Source: Barnesiella sp. WM24 (GTDB lineage Bacteria; Bacteroidota; Bacteroidia; Bacteroidales; Muribaculaceae). From it: a stretch of 64,000 nucleotides of DNA. The position numbers and the translations under genes are program-made. Shown piece after piece: positions 30,674-38,313 of this stretch (position 1 is the stretch's first letter; each line of letters opens with the position of its first letter). The notes under the pieces are model-generated. The model did no database searches. It saw nothing but the letters and a program-made list of their open reading frames with translations, and was not told the DNA's origin. The stretch lies in contig NZ_SPPC01000007.1 in assembly GCF_004570975.1 (NCBI RefSeq), forward strand, positions 124,001 to 188,000, read 5' to 3'.

Positions 30674-31311
30674 TGCTTTTGTAATGATGTTGTGAGATTT
30701 TTTACCGTTAAAAGCGGGTCGCCGTTTATGGACTTATGCAATGGATATCGTCACCGGATTCAGACACGAACAAAGGTCGTGTGGAAATTGGCTATACTAT
30801 GAGGTAACTGAATTGTCCGGACTGAAAAAGGGGGGATTAGTGAGGATATCAATACATGCGTGTCACAAATGGCTTCTTTCCCCGGCATTGCGGAAGAAGA
30901 AGCTGTTACTGACGACCCGATGTTAAATCTACGATACTTTTAAGTAAGTTATCTTAAATTTAAGTTACACGTATATGATAATCCTCAGCGAGCTGTGTCG
31001 CCTACGATGACTGTCTGACAGGAAGTGGATGTCTCCCGGTGTCGGATTGACCTATGTTGTTGCCGTTGTGCTGTCGACCAGGCTATTCCCTTCTCAATGG
31101 CAAGCGCCATCTTCCACACTCCGGCGGTCAAAACATCCCGTTTGGACGAAACATCCATGAGAATAACCACTTCCGGCAATTGTTTGCCATAGCGGTGGTT
31201 TCGTCTGCAAATATAAACGATATGATTGAATTGTGCAAAAAAATGTTGTCCCGGCAGGCGGGCAGAACAAAGTGGACGGGGAAATCGTTTCAACATAAAA
31301 CTTTATTACAT
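30674..31311. other. 638-base intergenic region
   Basis: No convincing gene. It holds an excellent minus-strand promoter (31208-31239) far upstream of the 29402-30673 gene, an AT-rich dyad around 30954 (TTAAATTTAA), and the 5' region of the flavin reductase-rubrerythrin gene. A plus-strand promoter for the latter is not clear; TATGATTG at 31221-31228 is the closest -7 candidate. Confidence 0.5.
31208..31239 (-). promoter_or_regulatory. strong minus-strand promoter with no adjacent gene
   Basis: TTTG (31236-31239), 20 bases, TATATTTG (31208-31215) on the minus strand: a perfect consensus. The nearest minus-strand gene starts at 30673, over 500 bases away, implying a long leader or a non-coding transcript. 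Confidence 0.55.
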
Positions 31312-32493
31312 ATGGAAAATCCGATGTTTAAGATCCCTTACGGGCTTTATGTCGTAACGGCTAATGTGGACGGTCGTGACAACGGCTGTATATCAAATAC
31401 TTTCGGACAGGTGACTGTCGAGCCTAATCAGGTCTCGCTGTGTATCAACAAGCTTAATCTTACATGTGAGATGATTATGAAATCGAAGGTCTATACTGCC
31501 TCGATTATCAGTGAGAAAGCCGATTTTTCGCTTTTCAAGCGTTTTGGATTCCAGACAGGAAGAAAGGTCGACAAGTTCAAGGATTTCACTGCCTGCCGTC
31601 GTCTTGACAACGGTACAATGGCAATCACCGAGGGGACAAACTCCTATATCAGCGTCAAGGTCACTGACTCGCTTGACCTCGGCACCCACATGATGTTTAT
31701 CGGCACGGTGACCGGCATGGAATCGTTGTCCGACGTGCCCTCTGCCACATATTCCTATTATCAGGAGCATATCAAGCCGAAACCTCAGCCGAGCGAGGCT
31801 GCCCAAAAGGGTCACACAGTGTGGCGCTGCAAGGTGTGCGGCTATGAATATGTGGGCGATGAGCTTCCGTCTGATTTTGTTTGCCCTGTGTGCAAGCATC
31901 CCGCCTCTGATTTCGAGAAGGTCGAGATTACCGACAATGTTGCCGACCAGCCTGCCAACCAATACTCCGGGACAAAAACCGAGCAAAATCTCCGTGACGC
32001 ATTTGCCGGAGAGAGCATGGCGCGTAACAAATACACTTATTTCGCATCGGTGGCGCGTAAGAACGGCTTTGAGCAGATTGCGGCCCTTTTCCTGAAGACC
32101 GCCGACAATGAGAAAGAACACGCCGAGTTGTGGTGCAAGGCTTTAGGCGGCATAAGCCAGGACACTGCGGTCAACCTGCTTCATGCCGCAGAGGGCGAGA
32201 ATTACGAGTGGACCGACATGTATGACCGTTTTGCCCGCGATGCCGATGAGGAAGGTTTCCACGAGCTTGCGGAGCAGTTCCGCGGAGTCGCCGCAATCGA
32301 GAAGCATCATGAAGAGCGTTACCGTGCGCTGTTGCGCAATGTGGAGGCCCACGAAGTGTTCCGCAAGAGCGGAGTGACGGTGTGGGAATGTCGCAATTGC
32401 GGTCACATCTGTATAGGCACCGAAGCGCCCGAGGTATGTCCCGTATGTTTCCATGCTCAAAGCTATTTTGAGGTTCATGCCGAAAATTACTGA
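31312..32493 (+). CDS. flavin reductase-rubredoxin-rubrerythrin fusion
   Basis: 393 aa from ATG 31312; the upstream open frame lacks meaningful sequence. Residues 1-155 are a flavin reductase/flavoredoxin domain (PYGLYVVTA...[11 protein letters not shown]). Residues 170-200 are rubredoxin with C173, C176, C191, C194. Residues 222-345 are a rubrerythrin four-helix diiron domain (ExxHAE-type NEKEHAE, and IEKHHEERY). Residues 358-388 are a second rubredoxin-like site with C360, C363, C376, C379. Together this would move electrons from NAD(P)H through flavin and iron to reduce hydrogen peroxide (or oxygen) within one chain. Cytoplasmic protection of an anaerobe; followed by a strong terminator. 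Confidence 0.88.
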
Positions 32494-32538
32494 TAAGGTT
32501 ACTATTGAAAAAGACACTATAGATTGAAAATGAGAGAG

Positions 32539-32578
32539 CCGTTCCGCCTGCATGTCATGTAAGCGGAACGGTTTTTTT
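32539..32578 (+). terminator. terminator of the rubrerythrin fusion gene
   Basis: CCGTTCCGC and GCGGAACGG form a 9-bp stem followed by seven T residues. Confidence 0.88.
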
Positions 32579-32652
32579 ATTCAGCAAGTCATATAGGCGT
32601 TTGTGCGGATTGCGTAGTATGCAGAGATGTGTTAAGGCATGTACATGCAGTG

Positions 32653-32761
32653 TAGGGGCGAGTGGAAGCTCGCCCGCGATACGGGCATGGGGATATGCAA
32701 TCTATCCCCGGGAGGGGATAATCTTTGTTTAGCCGTGGGTTGAGCGCAGCGATACCCACGG
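32653..32761. repeat. REP-like end, cassette 1 left
   Basis: Composite palindromic element: a hairpin GGGCGAG/CTCGCCC, a GATACGGGCAT segment, a hairpin TATCCCC-GGGA-GGGGATA, then the core 29-mer at 32733-32761 with arms CCGTGGGT/ACCCACGG. The core recurs at 33358-33386 (inverted), 33586-33614 and 33978-34006 (inverted). Confidence 0.75.
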
Positions 32762-32810
32762 TTTGGTTGGCATTTTAATTATGTTTCCGTAGGAATCATC
32801 AATGTACACA

Positions 32811-33251
32811 TTAATTTCGCAGGTTCTTCGTTTGCATGCCGTTTTCCTTCATCCATATTTCAATTTCTTCGATGAAAGACACTCTCTTATGATGCTCCTT
32901 CTGCCCTTTGATGTAATTTATAATCTTATCAGCCTCATTGCGAGAATAGGTGAACGCACCATAACCCTCTTGCCAGCCATCCCATTTCGGTAAAATCGAA
33001 TCTCTATTTATGGCAAGACTTGATTCACGTTTTAATTTCTGGATAAATTCTGATACAGCAAAAGTCGGTGGGATGGATATGAATAGATGAATATGGTCGG
33101 GCATGCCCCCAATCCTTAATGTTTCAGCACCATATTTCTTTAATATTGCAAACAGCAACCCGTACACCCTTCGCTCGTTTTTTATTAAAATTAATGGTCG
33201 TCGATTGCGGGTAGAAAATATTATGTGGTAAAGGAGATGGGTGTAGCTCAT
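32811..33251 (-). mobile_element. RAYT / IS200-type Y1 transposase, intact
   Basis: 146 aa Y1 transposase of the REP-associated (RAYT) branch. It has the HUH metal motif in GGMPDHIHLFISIPP (HIH near residue 54) and the C-terminal catalytic Tyr in FTYSRNEADK (or the following INYIKGQ). It is flanked by inverted palindromic cores at 32733-32761 and 33358-33386, the arrangement expected for single-strand DNA transposition of REP-type ends. A near-identical, internally deleted copy follows at 33664. Confidence 0.88.
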
Positions 33252-33357
33252 GTTTAATTAACTTTTTGCTAATTAATACAAATAAATTCAAAGATGCAAA
33301 TAGTTTGTGATTATTTTGATGATTCCTGTCGGAAACATCATTTGTGATGACGCTTGT

Positions 33358-33440
33358 CCGTGGGTATCGCTTCGCTCAACCCACGGCTACAAGTAGGATT
33401 ATCCCCTGGCGGGGAAACCATGAGCCCGCGATACGGTCAT
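33358..33440. repeat. REP-like end, cassette 1 right
   Basis: Inverted counterpart of the left end: core 29-mer 33358-33386 (CCGTGGGT/ACCCACGG), then a TATCCCC-type hairpin at about 33398-33417 and a GATACGG segment at 33430. Confidence 0.75.
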
Positions 33441-33585
33441 TGCGTTTGCGTGAACTTGGGCGACCGGGAGCTTGTCTGCGATACGGTCATTGCGGTTGCG
33501 AGAACTTGGGGCGACCGGGAGGTCGTCAGCGATACGGGCATTGGGATATGCAACCTATCCCCGGGAGGGGATAATCTTTGTTTAG
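33430..33585. repeat. tandem ~50-bp repeats between the RAYT cassettes
   Basis: Units begin with GATACGG at 33430, 33480 and 33531 and contain TTGCG, GAACTTGGG and GCGACCGG. A further copy begins at 34050 beyond cassette 2. They run into the left REP-like end of cassette 2. Confidence 0.65.
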
Positions 33586-34006
33586 CCGTGGGTTGAGCGC
33601 AGCGATACCCACGGCTTGTTTGGCATTTTAATTATGTTTCCGTAGGAATCATCAACGTTCACATTAGTTTCGCAAGTTCTTCGTTTGCATGCCGTTTTCT
33701 TTCATCCATATTTCAATTTCTTCGATGAAAGACACTCTCTTATGATGCTCCTTCTGCCCTTTGATGTAATTTATAATCTTATCAGCCTCATTGCGAGAAT
33801 AGGTGAACGCACCATAACCCTCTTGCCAGCCATCCCATTTCGGTAAAATCGAATCTCTATTTATGGCAAGACTTGATTCACGTTTTAATTTCTGGATAAA
33901 TTCTGATACAGCAAAAGTCGGTGGGATGGATATTTCTGATGATTCCTGTCGGAAACATTATTTGTGATGACGCTTGTCCGTGGGTATCGCTTCGCTCAAC
34001 CCACGG
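33586..34006. mobile_element. second RAYT cassette, internally deleted
   Basis: Bounded by core palindromes 33586-33614 and 33978-34006, like cassette 1 (654 bp core to core) but only 421 bp. Outside the deletion it is almost identical to cassette 1, including the flank with TTTCCGTAGGAATCATCAA, so the duplication is recent. It lacks the promoter-proximal half of the transposase and could move only in trans. Confidence 0.75.
33664..33933 (-). pseudogene. truncated RAYT transposase
   Basis: Carries the last ~90 codons of the transposase, including the Tyr region, but ends at GGATGGATAT where cassette 1 continues. About 232 bp (matching 33081-33312), with the start codon and HUH motif, is missing; the junction reads straight into the right flank (TGATGATTCCTGTCGG). 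Confidence 0.85.
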
Positions 34007-34226
34007 CTACAAGTAGGATTATCCCCTGGCGGGGAAACCGTGAGTCAGCGATACGGGCATTGCGGTTGCGTGAACTTGGGGCGACCGGATGGGGATTGGC
34101 GCCGGTGTTTGTTAAATTTGATTTAAAGCTAATGTTATGATTAAACTATGTAATTTCAGCGATGTTGTCATTTTATAGACAGTAGAAATTGTCATTGATT
34201 AATAACAAACATAAATAATAGATATT
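34007..34226. other. junction of REP cassette and oxalate operon leader
   Basis: The REP-derived sequence (TATCCCC hairpin, then one 50-bp unit from 34050) ends near 34100. A -7 box TAAATTTG lies at 34113-34120, without a good -33 element, and about 100 bases of AT-rich leader precede frc. Confidence 0.5.
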
Positions 34227-35525
34227 ATGAACAATGCACCATTGCAAGGAATCAAGGTGATAGACTTTACCGAGGTTCAGTCAGGACCGTCATGTACACA
34301 GATGCTCGCGTGGCTCGGCGCCGAAGTGATAAAGATTGAGCGTCCCGGTGTGGGCGACGCCACCCGTAAGGAATTGCAGTTTGACCCTGACCTTCCAAGC
34401 TATTATTTCCTTCAGCTTAACTCCGACAAAAAGTCGCTTGCTCTTGACGCCAAGACTCCCGACGGCAAGGCTATACTCACCAAGCTGATAAAGGAGGCTG
34501 ACGTGTTCATCGAGAATCTTCATCCGGGAGCTATGGACAAGCTCGGTTTCAGTTGGGAAGAGGTCCACAAGCTCAACCCGAAATGTATCTATGGCACAAT
34601 AAAGGGATTTCCGCTCTCTTCCAGATTCAAGGACCTGAAGGCTTACGAGCCTATAGCCCAGGTGACAGCCGCAGCAGCCTCGACCACAGGATGGTATGAG
34701 GGCGAGTATAACATCCCGACACAGTCGGGTGCGGCGCTCGGTGACTCCAATACGGGCATGCACCTAACCATCGGCATACTTGCCGCACTGATGCAGCGTG
34801 AACACACCGGCGAGGGCAGCTATGTCTATCAGTCAATGCACAACGCATGTCTTAACCTCTGTCGTATCAAGACACGCGACCAACTTACCCTTGACAGGAT
34901 AGGCTATCTGACCCAATTCCCGCAGTATCCCGACCAGAAGTTTGGCGACTTTGTGCCGCGTGCCGGCAACATGGAGGGCAGCGGAGTGCTTGGCTGGACT
35001 TACAAATGCAAAGGATGGGAGACCGATCCCAATGCCTACGTGTATGTGATCCTGCAGCGCGGGGCAAAAGATTTCGAGCTTGCCTGCAAGGGTCTCGGCT
35101 TCGAGGACTGGCTCACCAATCCGGATTTCAACACCGCCGATGCCCGTGACCGCCACAAACAGGAAATCTACAAGCGCATCGAGTCGTTTACTATTGACAA
35201 GGACAAGATGGAGGTAGTCAAACTGCTGTCGCCTTACGGCATACCTTGCGGTCCGGTGCTGTCGACCAAGGAGATTATGAGCGATGAATCGCTTTATGAC
35301 GGCAACACTCTTGTAAAGATAAACCAGGGCGGCAAAATCGGCGAGTTTGTGACTGTGGGATGCCCGTTCACCATCTCCAATTATCAGCCCGTCTACGGTC
35401 CGTGTCCGGAACTTGGAGGAAATACCGAAGAGGTGCTTACCTCGCTGGGATATACGGCTGAAGAGCAGGCTCAGTTCAAGGCTAACGGCACAACAGCCCC
35501 GCTTCCAAAGGAGGCTGAGAAATAA
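34227..35525 (+). CDS. frc: formyl-CoA:oxalate CoA-transferase
   Basis: 432 aa class III CoA-transferase. It matches Frc end to end: KVIDFTEVQSGPSCTQMLAWLGAEVIKIERPG at the start, QLNSDKKSLALD, and GAALGDSNTGMHL holding the catalytic Asp that carries the CoA as an acyl anhydride. It transfers CoA from formyl-CoA to oxalate. First gene of an operon with oxc and an AEC transporter, 38 bases before oxc. Confidence 0.93.
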   Translation: MNNAPLQGIKVIDFTEVQSGPSCTQMLAWLGAEVIKIERPGVGDATRKELQFDPDLPSYYFLQLNSDKKSLALDAKTPDGKAILTKLIKEADVFIENLHPGAMDKLGFSWEEVHKLNPKCIYGTIKGFPLSSRFKDLKAYEPIAQVTAAAASTTGWYEGEYNIPTQSGAALGDSNTGMHLTIGILAALMQREHTGEGSYVYQSMHNACLNLCRIKTRDQLTLDRIGYLTQFPQYPDQKFGDFVPRAGNMEGSGVLGWTYKCKGWETDPNAYVYVILQRGAKDFELACKGLGFEDWLTNPDFNTADARDRHKQEIYKRIESFTIDKDKMEVVKLLSPYGIPCGPVLSTKEIMSDESLYDGNTLVKINQGGKIGEFVTVGCPFTISNYQPVYGPCPELGGNTEEVLTSLGYTAEEQAQFKANGTTAPLPKEAEK

Positions 35526-35563
35526 CAAGGCTTTATAATTACCTGACATAAAACACTACTATT

Positions 35564-37291
35564 ATGTATATAGATAAAATTCCCCATACCGACCCTTCCA
35601 CTGCAAATGAAGTGACAGGAATGTGGATTCTTGCCCAGGCTCTGAAGAAGGTGGGAATCGACACCATGTACGGGCTTGTGGGAATACCGGTGACTGAATT
35701 TGCCTACATCGCCCAAGGTGAGGGCATACGGTTTGTCGGATTCCGCCATGAGCAGCAGGCGGGCATGGCAGCCGCTACCCACGGCTATCTGACCAAGACA
35801 CCCGGTGTATTGCTTACTGTGTCGTCGCTCGGCTTCCTGAACGGACTGACGGCGACTGCAAATGCCACTGTCAACTGCTATCCTATGATTCAGATTTCAG
35901 GGTCAAGCGACAGGGTGCCTATCGACCTTGAACAGGGCACATATGAGGGTCTCGACCAGTTGAATATCGCCAAGCCTCTTGTCAAGGCGGCTTACAGGAT
36001 AAACCGTCCCGAGGATATCATGACAGGTGTGGTGCGCGCCTATCGCGCCGCCGTCTCAGGGCGTCCCGGAGGTGTCTATCTTGACGTGACCACCCCGTGT
36101 CTCGGCGCGGTAATGGAGAGGAGCGCCGCCGAGGCTACGCTATACACCCCTGTCGACCTCTGTCCGGCTATGGTCCCCTCGCCGCAGTCGGTGACCCGCG
36201 CCCTCGAGCTGCTTGCCTCGGCTAAGAAGCCGGCGATACTGATAGGCAAGGGTGCGGCATATGCCGGGGTGGAAGACAAGGTAAAGAAACTTGTCGAGTC
36301 AACCGGCATTCCGTTTTATCCGATGTCGATGGCTAAGGGCGTGCTGCCCGACGATCATCCGCTCTCGGCATTGTCGTCAAGGAGCCTTGTCATGGAACAG
36401 GCCGATGTGGTGATGCTCGTAGGCGCCCGTCTTAACTGGCTGCTTTCGCGCGGACACGGCAAGTGGAATCCTGCCGGCAAGTTCATCCAGCTTGACATAG
36501 ACCCGGAGGAGATTGACATAAACCGCGCCATTGCGGCTCCGGTGGTCGGTGACTTGGCGTCGTCGCTTGACGCCCTGTTGACAGCGCTGCCACAGTATAA
36601 GATGTCGGTCGACCCGGATTGGGTCAAGACGATACAGACCGAGGGCAAGGCTAAGGATGCGAAATTTGCCGAGCGTCTTGTCCCGCAGACTGTGCCGATG
36701 ACCCACTGGAGCGCGTTGAGCGCCATAAAGAAAGTGTTTGAGAAAAATCCCGACGTGATACTTGTCAATGAGGGCGCCAACACGCTTGATGACACCCGCG
36801 ACACTCTGCTGATGAAGCTGCCGCGCCACCGCATAGACTGCGCGACATGGGCTATCATGGGCATGGGTATGGGCTCGACCGTTGGTGCGGCGATTGCCAC
36901 CGGCAAGTCGGTAGTGGCTATCGAGGGTGACAGCGCTTTCGGCTTCAGCGGAATGGATTTCAGCACCATATGCCGTTTTGACCTCCCCGCTACTGTCGTA
37001 GTCTTCAATAACGGCGGTATATACAACGGTGTAGGTGAGAACCTCAGCGGCAACGGTGACCCTGCTCCGACAACTCTTGACGTCAAGGCCCGTTACGACA
37101 AACTTGGCGAGGCGTTTGGCGCTACTACCTATTATGTCGCAACCCCTGCCGAGCTTGAGACCGCGCTGACCGAGGCAATTGCGTCGCGCAAGCCATGTCT
37201 TATCGACGTCCAGCTTGCTGCCGACTCCGGCAAGGAGAGCGGTCATATAGGCTATCTGAATCCCGAGGCGCTTATACCTATCAAGGTGTAA
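35564..37291 (+). CDS. oxc: oxalyl-CoA decarboxylase
   Basis: 575 aa thiamine-diphosphate enzyme. The N-terminal domain has GLVGIPVTEFAY and FRHEQQAG with the essential Glu. The C-terminal cofactor motif is GDSAFGFSGMDFSTICR...FNNGG. Family-typical residues such as NRPEDI and the SRSLVM region favour Oxc over acetolactate synthase. It converts oxalyl-CoA to formyl-CoA and CO2, and the formyl-CoA is recycled by Frc. Confidence 0.93.
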   Translation: MYIDKIPHTDPSTANEVTGMWILAQALKKVGIDTMYGLVGIPVTEFAYIAQGEGIRFVGFRHEQQAGMAAATHGYLTKTPGVLLTVSSLGFLNGLTATANATVNCYPMIQISGSSDRVPIDLEQGTYEGLDQLNIAKPLVKAAYRINRPEDIMTGVVRAYRAAVSGRPGGVYLDVTTPCLGAVMERSAAEATLYTPVDLCPAMVPSPQSVTRALELLASAKKPAILIGKGAAYAGVEDKVKKLVESTGIPFYPMSMAKGVLPDDHPLSALSSRSLVMEQADVVMLVGARLNWLLSRGHGKWNPAGKFIQLDIDPEEIDINRAIAAPVVGDLASSLDALLTALPQYKMSVDPDWVKTIQTEGKAKDAKFAERLVPQTVPMTHWSALSAIKKVFEKNPDVILVNEGANTLDDTRDTLLMKLPRHRIDCATWAIMGMGMGSTVGAAIATGKSVVAIEGDSAFGFSGMDFSTICRFDLPATVVVFNNGGIYNGVGENLSGNGDPAPTTLDVKARYDKLGEAFGATTYYVATPAELETALTEAIASRKPCLIDVQLAADSGKESGHIGYLNPEALIPIKV

Positions 37292-37341
37292 GCCCCGGGC
37301 TTCACCCGAAATTATGTGCAATCTTTTAAACGCGATGACTT

Positions 37342-38313
37342 ATGGGACATATTATACTTTACGCCATAGTCCCGATATTTGTGATAATGGCACTGGGATA
37401 TATCTCGGGAAAGAAAGGGGCATTTTCAGGCGCTGATGCCAAGATATTGAACAAGGTGGTGCTTAACTATGCGTTGCCCGCCGCCCTGTTTGTCTCCATC
37501 ATCAAGGCTAACCGCGAGATGCTGAGTGTCGACCTGAAGCTGACGGTGATAAGTTTCACTGTGCTGATAGCCTGCTTCTTCCTTGTCTATTTTGTGTTCA
37601 AGTATCTTTACAAGGACACAACGGCTGAATCGGCGGTGTCGGCTCTTATCAGCGGTTCGCCGACAATCGGATTTCTCGGTTTTGCCGTGTTGCAGCCTAT
37701 ATTCGGCTCGTCGGCATCGGTGGGTCTTGTAATCGCGATAGTGGCAATTGAGGTCAATGCTGTCGGTATACCTATCGGACTGTCGCTCCTTAACGCCGGA
37801 AATGAAGCTGCGGCGGCAAAAAACGGCGGCAAGAAGCCTAATCCGTGGAAGCCGGTGATTCACGCCCTCGAGCAGCCTGTCGCCTGGGCGCCGATACTGG
37901 CGGTGATTCTCGTGTTGTGTGGCGTGAAGTGGCCCGCCTGCCTTGACCCGTCGTTCAACCTTATCGCCGGAGCCAATGCCTCTGTGGCTGTGTTTGCCGC
38001 CGGCATCACGCTTTCATCGGTGAAGATAGTGCTCAACGGTCAGGTGTTCATGGGCTCGTTCCTGAAACTGATTGTCATGCCTCTCGCCATACTGATTGTG
38101 GGTCTCCTCTTCCACATGGAGCCGTTCAATCTGAAGATGCTTGTAGTCTGTGCGGCACTCCCGCCGGCATTCTCCGGAATCATCATCGCGAGCCGTTACA
38201 ACACTTACGTTGCGACCGGAACATCATCGCTTGCGGTAAGTACACTGCTATTCATGGGCGCGTGTCCGTTGTGGATATGGCTTACCGACCTTGCCCTGAA
38301 GTGGTGGGCATAA
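37342..38313 (+). CDS. AEC family transporter, probable oxalate/formate carrier
   Basis: 323 aa with about ten hydrophobic helices; auxin efflux carrier (AEC) family, with NKVVLNYALPAALF near residue 35 as the typical block. It lies 50 bases after oxc. In Escherichia coli the related yfdV sits with yfdW (frc) and yfdU (oxc), which supports a role in oxalate, formate or related acid exchange. The specificity is inferred from context only. Confidence 0.82.
   Translation: MGHIILYAIVPIFVIMALGYISGKKGAFSGADAKILNKVVLNYALPAALFVSIIKANREMLSVDLKLTVISFTVLIACFFLVYFVFKYLYKDTTAESAVSALISGSPTIGFLGFAVLQPIFGSSASVGLVIAIVAIEVNAVGIPIGLSLLNAGNEAAAAKNGGKKPNPWKPVIHALEQPVAWAPILAVILVLCGVKWPACLDPSFNLIAGANASVAVFAAGITLSSVKIVLNGQVFMGSFLKLIVMPLAILIVGLLFHMEPFNLKMLVVCAALPPAFSGIIIASRYNTYVATGTSSLAVSTLLFMGACPLWIWLTDLALKWWA

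Follow-up and report, generated by a model that had tools for sequence, protein, structure and literature searches.

The window analysed here, a stretch of 64,000 nucleotides from Barnesiella sp. WM24, contains two tandem cassettes in which inverted sets of hairpins enclose a gene for a Y1 HUH transposase (tnpA), or what is left of one (Table 1). The preliminary description had reported a 29-bp palindrome (hereafter C) at four sites, each beside a TATCCCC hairpin (B), and on both counts it was accurate: the palindromes carry zero or one mismatch, with none expected in shuffled sequence, and hairpin B accompanies each of them, inverted between the two ends. Its account of two Y1 HUH transposase cassettes holds for the first, whose gene is intact, but not for the second, whose gene has lost 233 bp (corresponding to 33081-33313 of the first copy), and with them the start and codons 1-57, among them those of the HUH motif. 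The intact protein has the HUH histidines H53 and H55, Tyr113, and Gln117 with the motif QKEHH. A third hairpin, D (GTTTCCGnAGGAATCATC / GATGATTCC..GGAAAC), is present at every end and was missing from the earlier list of features. Folded as single-stranded DNA, each end formed three hairpins, with z at -5.2 for the end lying 5' of tnpA and at -3.0 for the one lying 3' of it. The two C palindromes of an element differ in their feet, GTAG in one and TTTAG in the other, which makes the element polar.

Table 1. Positions of the cassette features within the window.
Feature	Position	Strand	Remarks
GTAG-tagged REP hairpin A (GTAGGGGCGAGTGGAAGCTCGCCCGC), outermost	32652-32677	+	second REP family, 235 genome copies
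Hairpin B, cassette 1, 3' of tnpA	32703-32720		TATCCCC-GGGA-GGGGATA
Palindrome C, cassette 1, 3' of tnpA	32730-32761	-	29-mer 32733-32761; TTTAG-type foot
Hairpin D, cassette 1, 3' of tnpA	32782-32802		ATGTTTCCGTAGGAATCATCA
tnpA, intact	32811-33251	-	146-aa Y1 HUH protein, TnpA-Y1 subclass 1.2
Hairpin D', cassette 1, 5' of tnpA	33316-33342
Palindrome C', cassette 1, 5' of tnpA	33358-33390	+	29-mer 33358-33386; GTAG foot 33387-33390 on - strand
Hairpin B', cassette 1, 5' of tnpA	33402-33415		TCCCC-TGGC-GGGGA
Two degenerate direct A-REP-like units, inter-cassette	33424-33518		family D3
Hairpin B, cassette 2	33556-33573
Palindrome C, cassette 2	33583-33614	-	29-mer 33586-33614
Hairpin D, cassette 2	33635-33655
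tnpA remnant, cassette 2	33667-33933	-	retains codons 58-146; 233-bp deletion has taken the start and HUH motif
Hairpin D', cassette 2	33936-33962
Palindrome C', cassette 2	33978-34010	+	29-mer 33978-34006; GTAG foot on - strand
Hairpin B', cassette 2	34022-34035
Degenerate A-REP-like unit, outer flank of cassette 2	34044-34088		family D3

On one side the cassettes adjoin genes with Pfam matches, in order, to a family III CoA-transferase, a TPP enzyme and a membrane transporter (34227-38313), a gene order resembling a cluster for oxalate breakdown (formyl-CoA transferase, oxalyl-CoA decarboxylase and carrier). On the other, in a single open reading frame (31054-32493), a flavin reductase domain is joined to rubredoxin-like domains and rubrerythrin (Pfam). 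A known RNA element was rejected, as Rfam returned zero matches across positions 31000-36000. A plasmid or phage element was likewise rejected, given that all matches fell below 60% identity and those listed were ordinary IS200/IS605 enzymes or unannotated.

Judged by its sequence, the transposase is a member of TnpA-Y1 subclass 1.2, a sister of the IS200 enzymes, and not a RAYT (REP-associated transposase). It scored 80 bits against the NCBIfam IS200 model NF033573 (cut-off 55) and 87 bits against PF01797, but 32.5 bits against the RAYT model NF047646 (cut-off 80); all 22 of the 22 aligned relatives match both the IS200 and the RAYT models. Its signature, DHIH / YIKGQKEHH, combines the Y---Q of class 1 with the Y---Q--HH of subclass 1.2, found at 28 of 28 family loci, and lacks the NP motif that follows the catalytic tyrosine in RAYTs. 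Phylogenetically the protein falls within a set of 29 subclass 1.2 rows (SH-aLRT 97), apart from both class 1.1 and the class 2 RAYTs, and a topology uniting the 39 subclass 1.2 rows in one clade was not rejected (p-AU 0.68). The predicted structure (mean pLDDT 87.6) had its best E-values with IS608/ISDra2 among PDB relatives, and its lowest RMSD among HUH hits with the E. coli TnpA-REP 4er8 (2.7 A over 119 columns); as a single-chain prediction does not distinguish a monomer from a swapped dimer, we base no conclusion on it.

The preliminary description had assigned the cassettes to a canonical REP-RAYT system. Its reading of the layout stands, as the arrangement resembles that of a REPtron, with palindromes inverted on the two flanks, a GTAG at one of the ends, and dispersed extragenic repeats for one gene; its reading of the protein does not. 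It had named absence of the palindrome elsewhere, and of RAYT affinity in a phylogeny, as evidence against itself: the palindrome does occur elsewhere, but the RAYT affinity is absent. With the model score, the missing NP motif and the tree all placing the enzyme outside class 2, we rejected a class 2 RAYT, and consider a canonical RAYT-REP system scarcely credible here. The feet are more equivocal: RAYT repeats have GT[AG]G directly at the stem, and the window pairs a GTAG end with a TTTAG end, but across the group the foot is TA[AG]C, which counts against a RAYT-REP system.

The 29-mer count that the preliminary description had called for was run on the host genome (3.49 Mb in 40 contigs), allowing up to 3 mismatches. 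It returned 39 copies of C, 21 on the plus and 18 on the minus strand, and 0/0 for the reversed pattern. Sixteen pairs form doublets, all in a single relative orientation and 119-157 bp apart, and the rest belong to the cassettes or are among a few singles. The transposase is encoded by the one intact and one internally deleted copy in the window and nowhere else in the genome, bearing out the expectation of a single transposase for many repeats. The repeats are also a type of their own, as had been proposed, and proved to be dispersed and mostly extragenic: only 2 of 38 palindrome midpoints fall inside open reading frames of at least 200 aa, against a background of 77%. At a 130-aa threshold the overlap is 15 of 38, which probably reflects palindrome arrays devoid of stop codons. 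One lone C palindrome (L035:8935-8963), with a foot on each side and lying between two B hairpins, has the form of a collapsed doublet and resembles REPs of subclass 2.4 that have been described as 'double foot'.

Each gene-free copy is a symmetric nested unit, B-C-D-core-D'-C'-B', in which 18-21 nt separate C from D and the core measures 16-19, 37 or 52 nt. These copies could be internal-deletion MITEs of an ordinary IS200-type insertion sequence, scattered through the genome, with the single tnpA as the surviving parent. Such an origin would fit a class 1 protein placed beside IS200, the second cassette, which is itself an internal-deletion derivative, and the retention of both ends in gene-free copies. 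The cores, however, do not read as remnants of tnpA: just 1 of 11 scored above all shuffles, which is unconvincing after 11 tests, and a remnant origin for them was rejected. The structure of the ends and the number of genes per genome, considered below, also bear on this reading.

A second repeat, the A hairpin (GTAGGGGCGA...TCGCCCGC), has 235 copies in the host genome, in BIME-like arrays, and 14 of the 16 C doublets sit between A hairpins. A second Y1 gene (L047:1366-1860; G000:C37:113077-113571), encoding a class 2-like protein of 164 aa with NHFH/WQ/YIENN, has inverted A REPs (GTAGGGGCGA) on either side. Because C doublets nest in A arrays, and the class 2-like gene is itself flanked by A, we count two REP-type systems in the host genome, of which one is nested inside the arrays of the other. 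As so many doublets lie within A-REP arrays, the dynamics of those arrays could account for part of the spread of C. It might further be supposed that the palindromes are passengers in A doublets mobilized by the class 2 Y1 enzyme, and that the subclass 1.2 gene is incidental; the nesting and the flanking of the class 2 gene would agree with this, but two doublets (L039 and L042) stand free of A.

Within the arrays at L033 (2531-4341) and L044 (2891-3991), unfilled A-A' intervals hold one B hairpin and those filled with C-D hold two; the two kinds of interval may represent natural empty and filled sites. Their comparison raises the hypothesis that the element is inserted or excised at hairpin B. 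We put this no more strongly because L036 and L043 also have A-A' intervals lacking any B, and the B at L042 is altered.

Near identity of the two cassettes had been taken as a sign of recent activity, a suggestion that was not sustained. The cassettes differ by 24 mismatches, chiefly beyond the element itself, and both lie among degenerate A-REP units arrayed in tandem, as do other tandem doublets in the genome. Since they resemble the tandem filled units in A arrays at L033, L035 and L041, array duplication explains their similarity most simply, and the pair look like the product of such a duplication and a 233-bp deletion rather than of recent transposition.

Homologues of tnpA occur in half of 297 genomes of the host family, spanning 24 of 30 genera, mostly as 1-3 divergent copies per gene-bearing genome, and no near-identical tnpA sets were seen among the family genomes inspected. 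At 28 family loci, the upstream flank was scored against the reverse-complemented downstream flank, with medians of 41.5 when both came from one locus and 9.5 when they came from different loci (99th percentile 27). The inversion recurs across Bacteroidota: at 75 loci of the wider phylum, a sample that shares some genomes with the family set, the medians were 29 for matched and 9.5 for mismatched flanks, and 55 of the 75 exceeded the 95th percentile of mismatched pairs. Many Chryseobacterium loci had no flanking inverted repeat detectable at the sensitivity used. Most of the 28 and most of the 75 loci share a common end order, namely hairpin B, TA(A/G)C foot, palindrome C and hairpin D. A TA[AG]C foot with a perfect 7-bp stem was present in 41 of 86 upstream and 43 of 84 downstream flanks, as against about one per set in shuffled controls and 0-4 when the foot was altered; this strict test is failed by about half of the loci. 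The foot occurred at 0 of 9 class 1.1 and 1 of 22 class 2 loci. As there are 18 distinct arm sequences among the 41 flanks with foot and stem, pairing is conserved while sequence changes.

These surveys bear on the derivation of the gene-free copies from an ordinary IS200 element. That reading sits poorly with genomes holding mostly 1-3 divergent genes and, among those inspected, no near-identical sets; and the ends are inverted palindromes, unlike the asymmetric ends of IS200 elements, class 1.1 loci having little flanking inversion (median 12.5). Together with the cores, these observations leave it, in our judgment, an unlikely explanation.

For most of 17 genomes examined, copies of the end that flanks the gene are also present at sites away from it. 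When nine genome-specific B-C units were matched against nine genomes, each found 4-44 matches in its own genome and, among those listed, there was about one cross match overall. The window's palindrome is similarly near-private, being present in 8 of 297 family genomes, seven of which have 1-5 copies. Genome G155 has a 37-bp REP in 53 copies for one gene, with 0 copies in four other genomes, two of them congeneric, and 0 of 19 of its copies in open reading frames of at least 200 aa. Outside the family, where match counts are upper counts as both strands of one palindrome were sometimes counted, a genome of Bacteroidaceae had 80 matches for 2 genes, Prevotellaceae 58 for 1, and unassigned Bacteroidales 46 for 2; two Chryseobacterium genomes had 13 and 7 matches with 3 genes each, and Prolixibacteraceae 5 with 4 genes. 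In five genomes, 1-2 genes are accompanied by about 40-80 repeat copies, and in G445 and G447 the matches listed adjoin the gene only. Dispersed elements of G155 (L189, L203, L206) are bounded on the outside by inverted GTGTCAAAAT...ATTTTGACAC ends, and some have short tandem units of end and B beside them. REP copies and arrays are frequent at contig ends (G448 C11:1-68, C7:1-68 and C2:2-70; the end of G000:C3), and assemblies therefore probably undercount them.

Aligned gene-free elements of G155 and G097 comprise the complete B-C-D-D'-C'-B' unit, and no A-type hairpin was seen at the loci read in other genomes with B-C-D elements. Dispersed elements in those genomes keep B-C-D around their own subclass 1.2 gene where A is unseen, and the pairing of gene and repeat is private to each genome; both facts, with the A-free doublets of the host, speak against C as a passenger of the A system, a reading we hold to be distinctly improbable.

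We consider it probable that the window holds the transposase-bearing copy, and a deleted tandem copy, of a REPIN-like family in which a single subclass 1.2 enzyme serves the gene-free elements in trans. Each element is a symmetric single-strand hairpin array, B - foot+C - D - core - D' - C'+foot - B', whose core holds tnpA in one copy per genome and ~16-52 nt in the rest. Subclass 1.2 TnpA may bind the C hairpins and their TA(A/G)C/GTAG feet in single-stranded DNA, and would nick or cleave them using Tyr113 and the HUH histidines. The short gene-free elements might then be mobilized in trans, as has been proposed for RAYTs and REPINs (PMC2817692, PMC3116915), each enzyme presumably being specific to its own palindrome. 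What the analysis observed is the anatomy of the elements, their dispersal and orientation, the scarcity of the gene, and a private pairing that recurs across Bacteroidota; binding, nicking and mobilization by this protein are inferred. More tentatively, and with somewhat more doubt than conviction, we suggest that subclass 1.2 represents a second transition from an IS200-like transposon to one enzyme with a private population of gene-free hairpins, separate from that of the class 2 RAYTs, Bacteroidota-wide, and with an end code of its own (B, TA(A/G)C foot and C, D), in which B is perhaps a paired cleavage or target site.

TnpA-Y1 subclass 1.2 was described as low-copy, found in Cyanobacteria and Bacteroidetes, generally without the typical IS200 terminal structures, and lacking REPs ('REP: no'; Quentin et al. 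2018, PMC6006769); a search of the open-access literature turned up no report of REPs for this subclass. The system at hand pairs a TnpA of subclass 1.2 with a REP-like population, a partner that had been reported absent, and by our reading it works like REP-RAYT and REPIN systems. This contradicts an account in the literature by which an entire transposase subclass is REP-free, and adds a Bacteroidota-wide REP/REPIN-like system whose gene is present in half of the sampled family genomes. It also provides a comparison lineage for how a transposon turns into a single-copy enzyme that maintains repeats; as the pairing of gene and repeat is private to genomes, coevolution and specificity are directly testable. 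The repeats are, further, a candidate explanation for contig-end repeat arrays in gut metagenome assemblies.

The enzyme shares with published subclass 1.2 members DH[IV]H, Y---Q--HH, a length of about 148 aa, a C-terminal tail, low copy number and occurrence in Bacteroidetes, but differs from their description in its inverted triple hairpins and dispersed cognate repeats (PMC6006769). IS608 and ISDra2 of the IS200/IS605 family are its closest sequence relatives of known structure, with a HUH fold and Y---Q, and they likewise act on hairpins in single-stranded DNA; here, however, no tnpB was seen beside the gene, there is no multi-copy IS behaviour, and the ends are inverted rather than asymmetric. 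TIRtrons (TIRYT) also have a Y1 gene between terminal inverted repeats, some with genome-dispersed repeats (PMC3733652), although the majority of TIRYTs on record belong to class 2.1 and bear C-terminal HTH domains (PMC6006769), in contrast to the subclass 1.2 protein here. With the REPtrons of RAYT/TnpA-REP (Nunvar et al. 2010, PMC2817692) the system has in common one gene between inverted dispersed palindromes, private pairing and BIME-like arrays, and departs from them in its class 1 glutamine, absent NP motif, three hairpins per end, and a TA(A/G)C foot in place of GT(A/G)G at the stem. Compared with REPINs (Bertels and Rainey 2011, PMC3116915), the elements are longer, at about 200-300 bp, each half contains three nested types of hairpin, and the partner is of subclass 1.2, yet they share the inverted extragenic REP doublets, long hairpins, single-copy gene and tandem clusters of that system.
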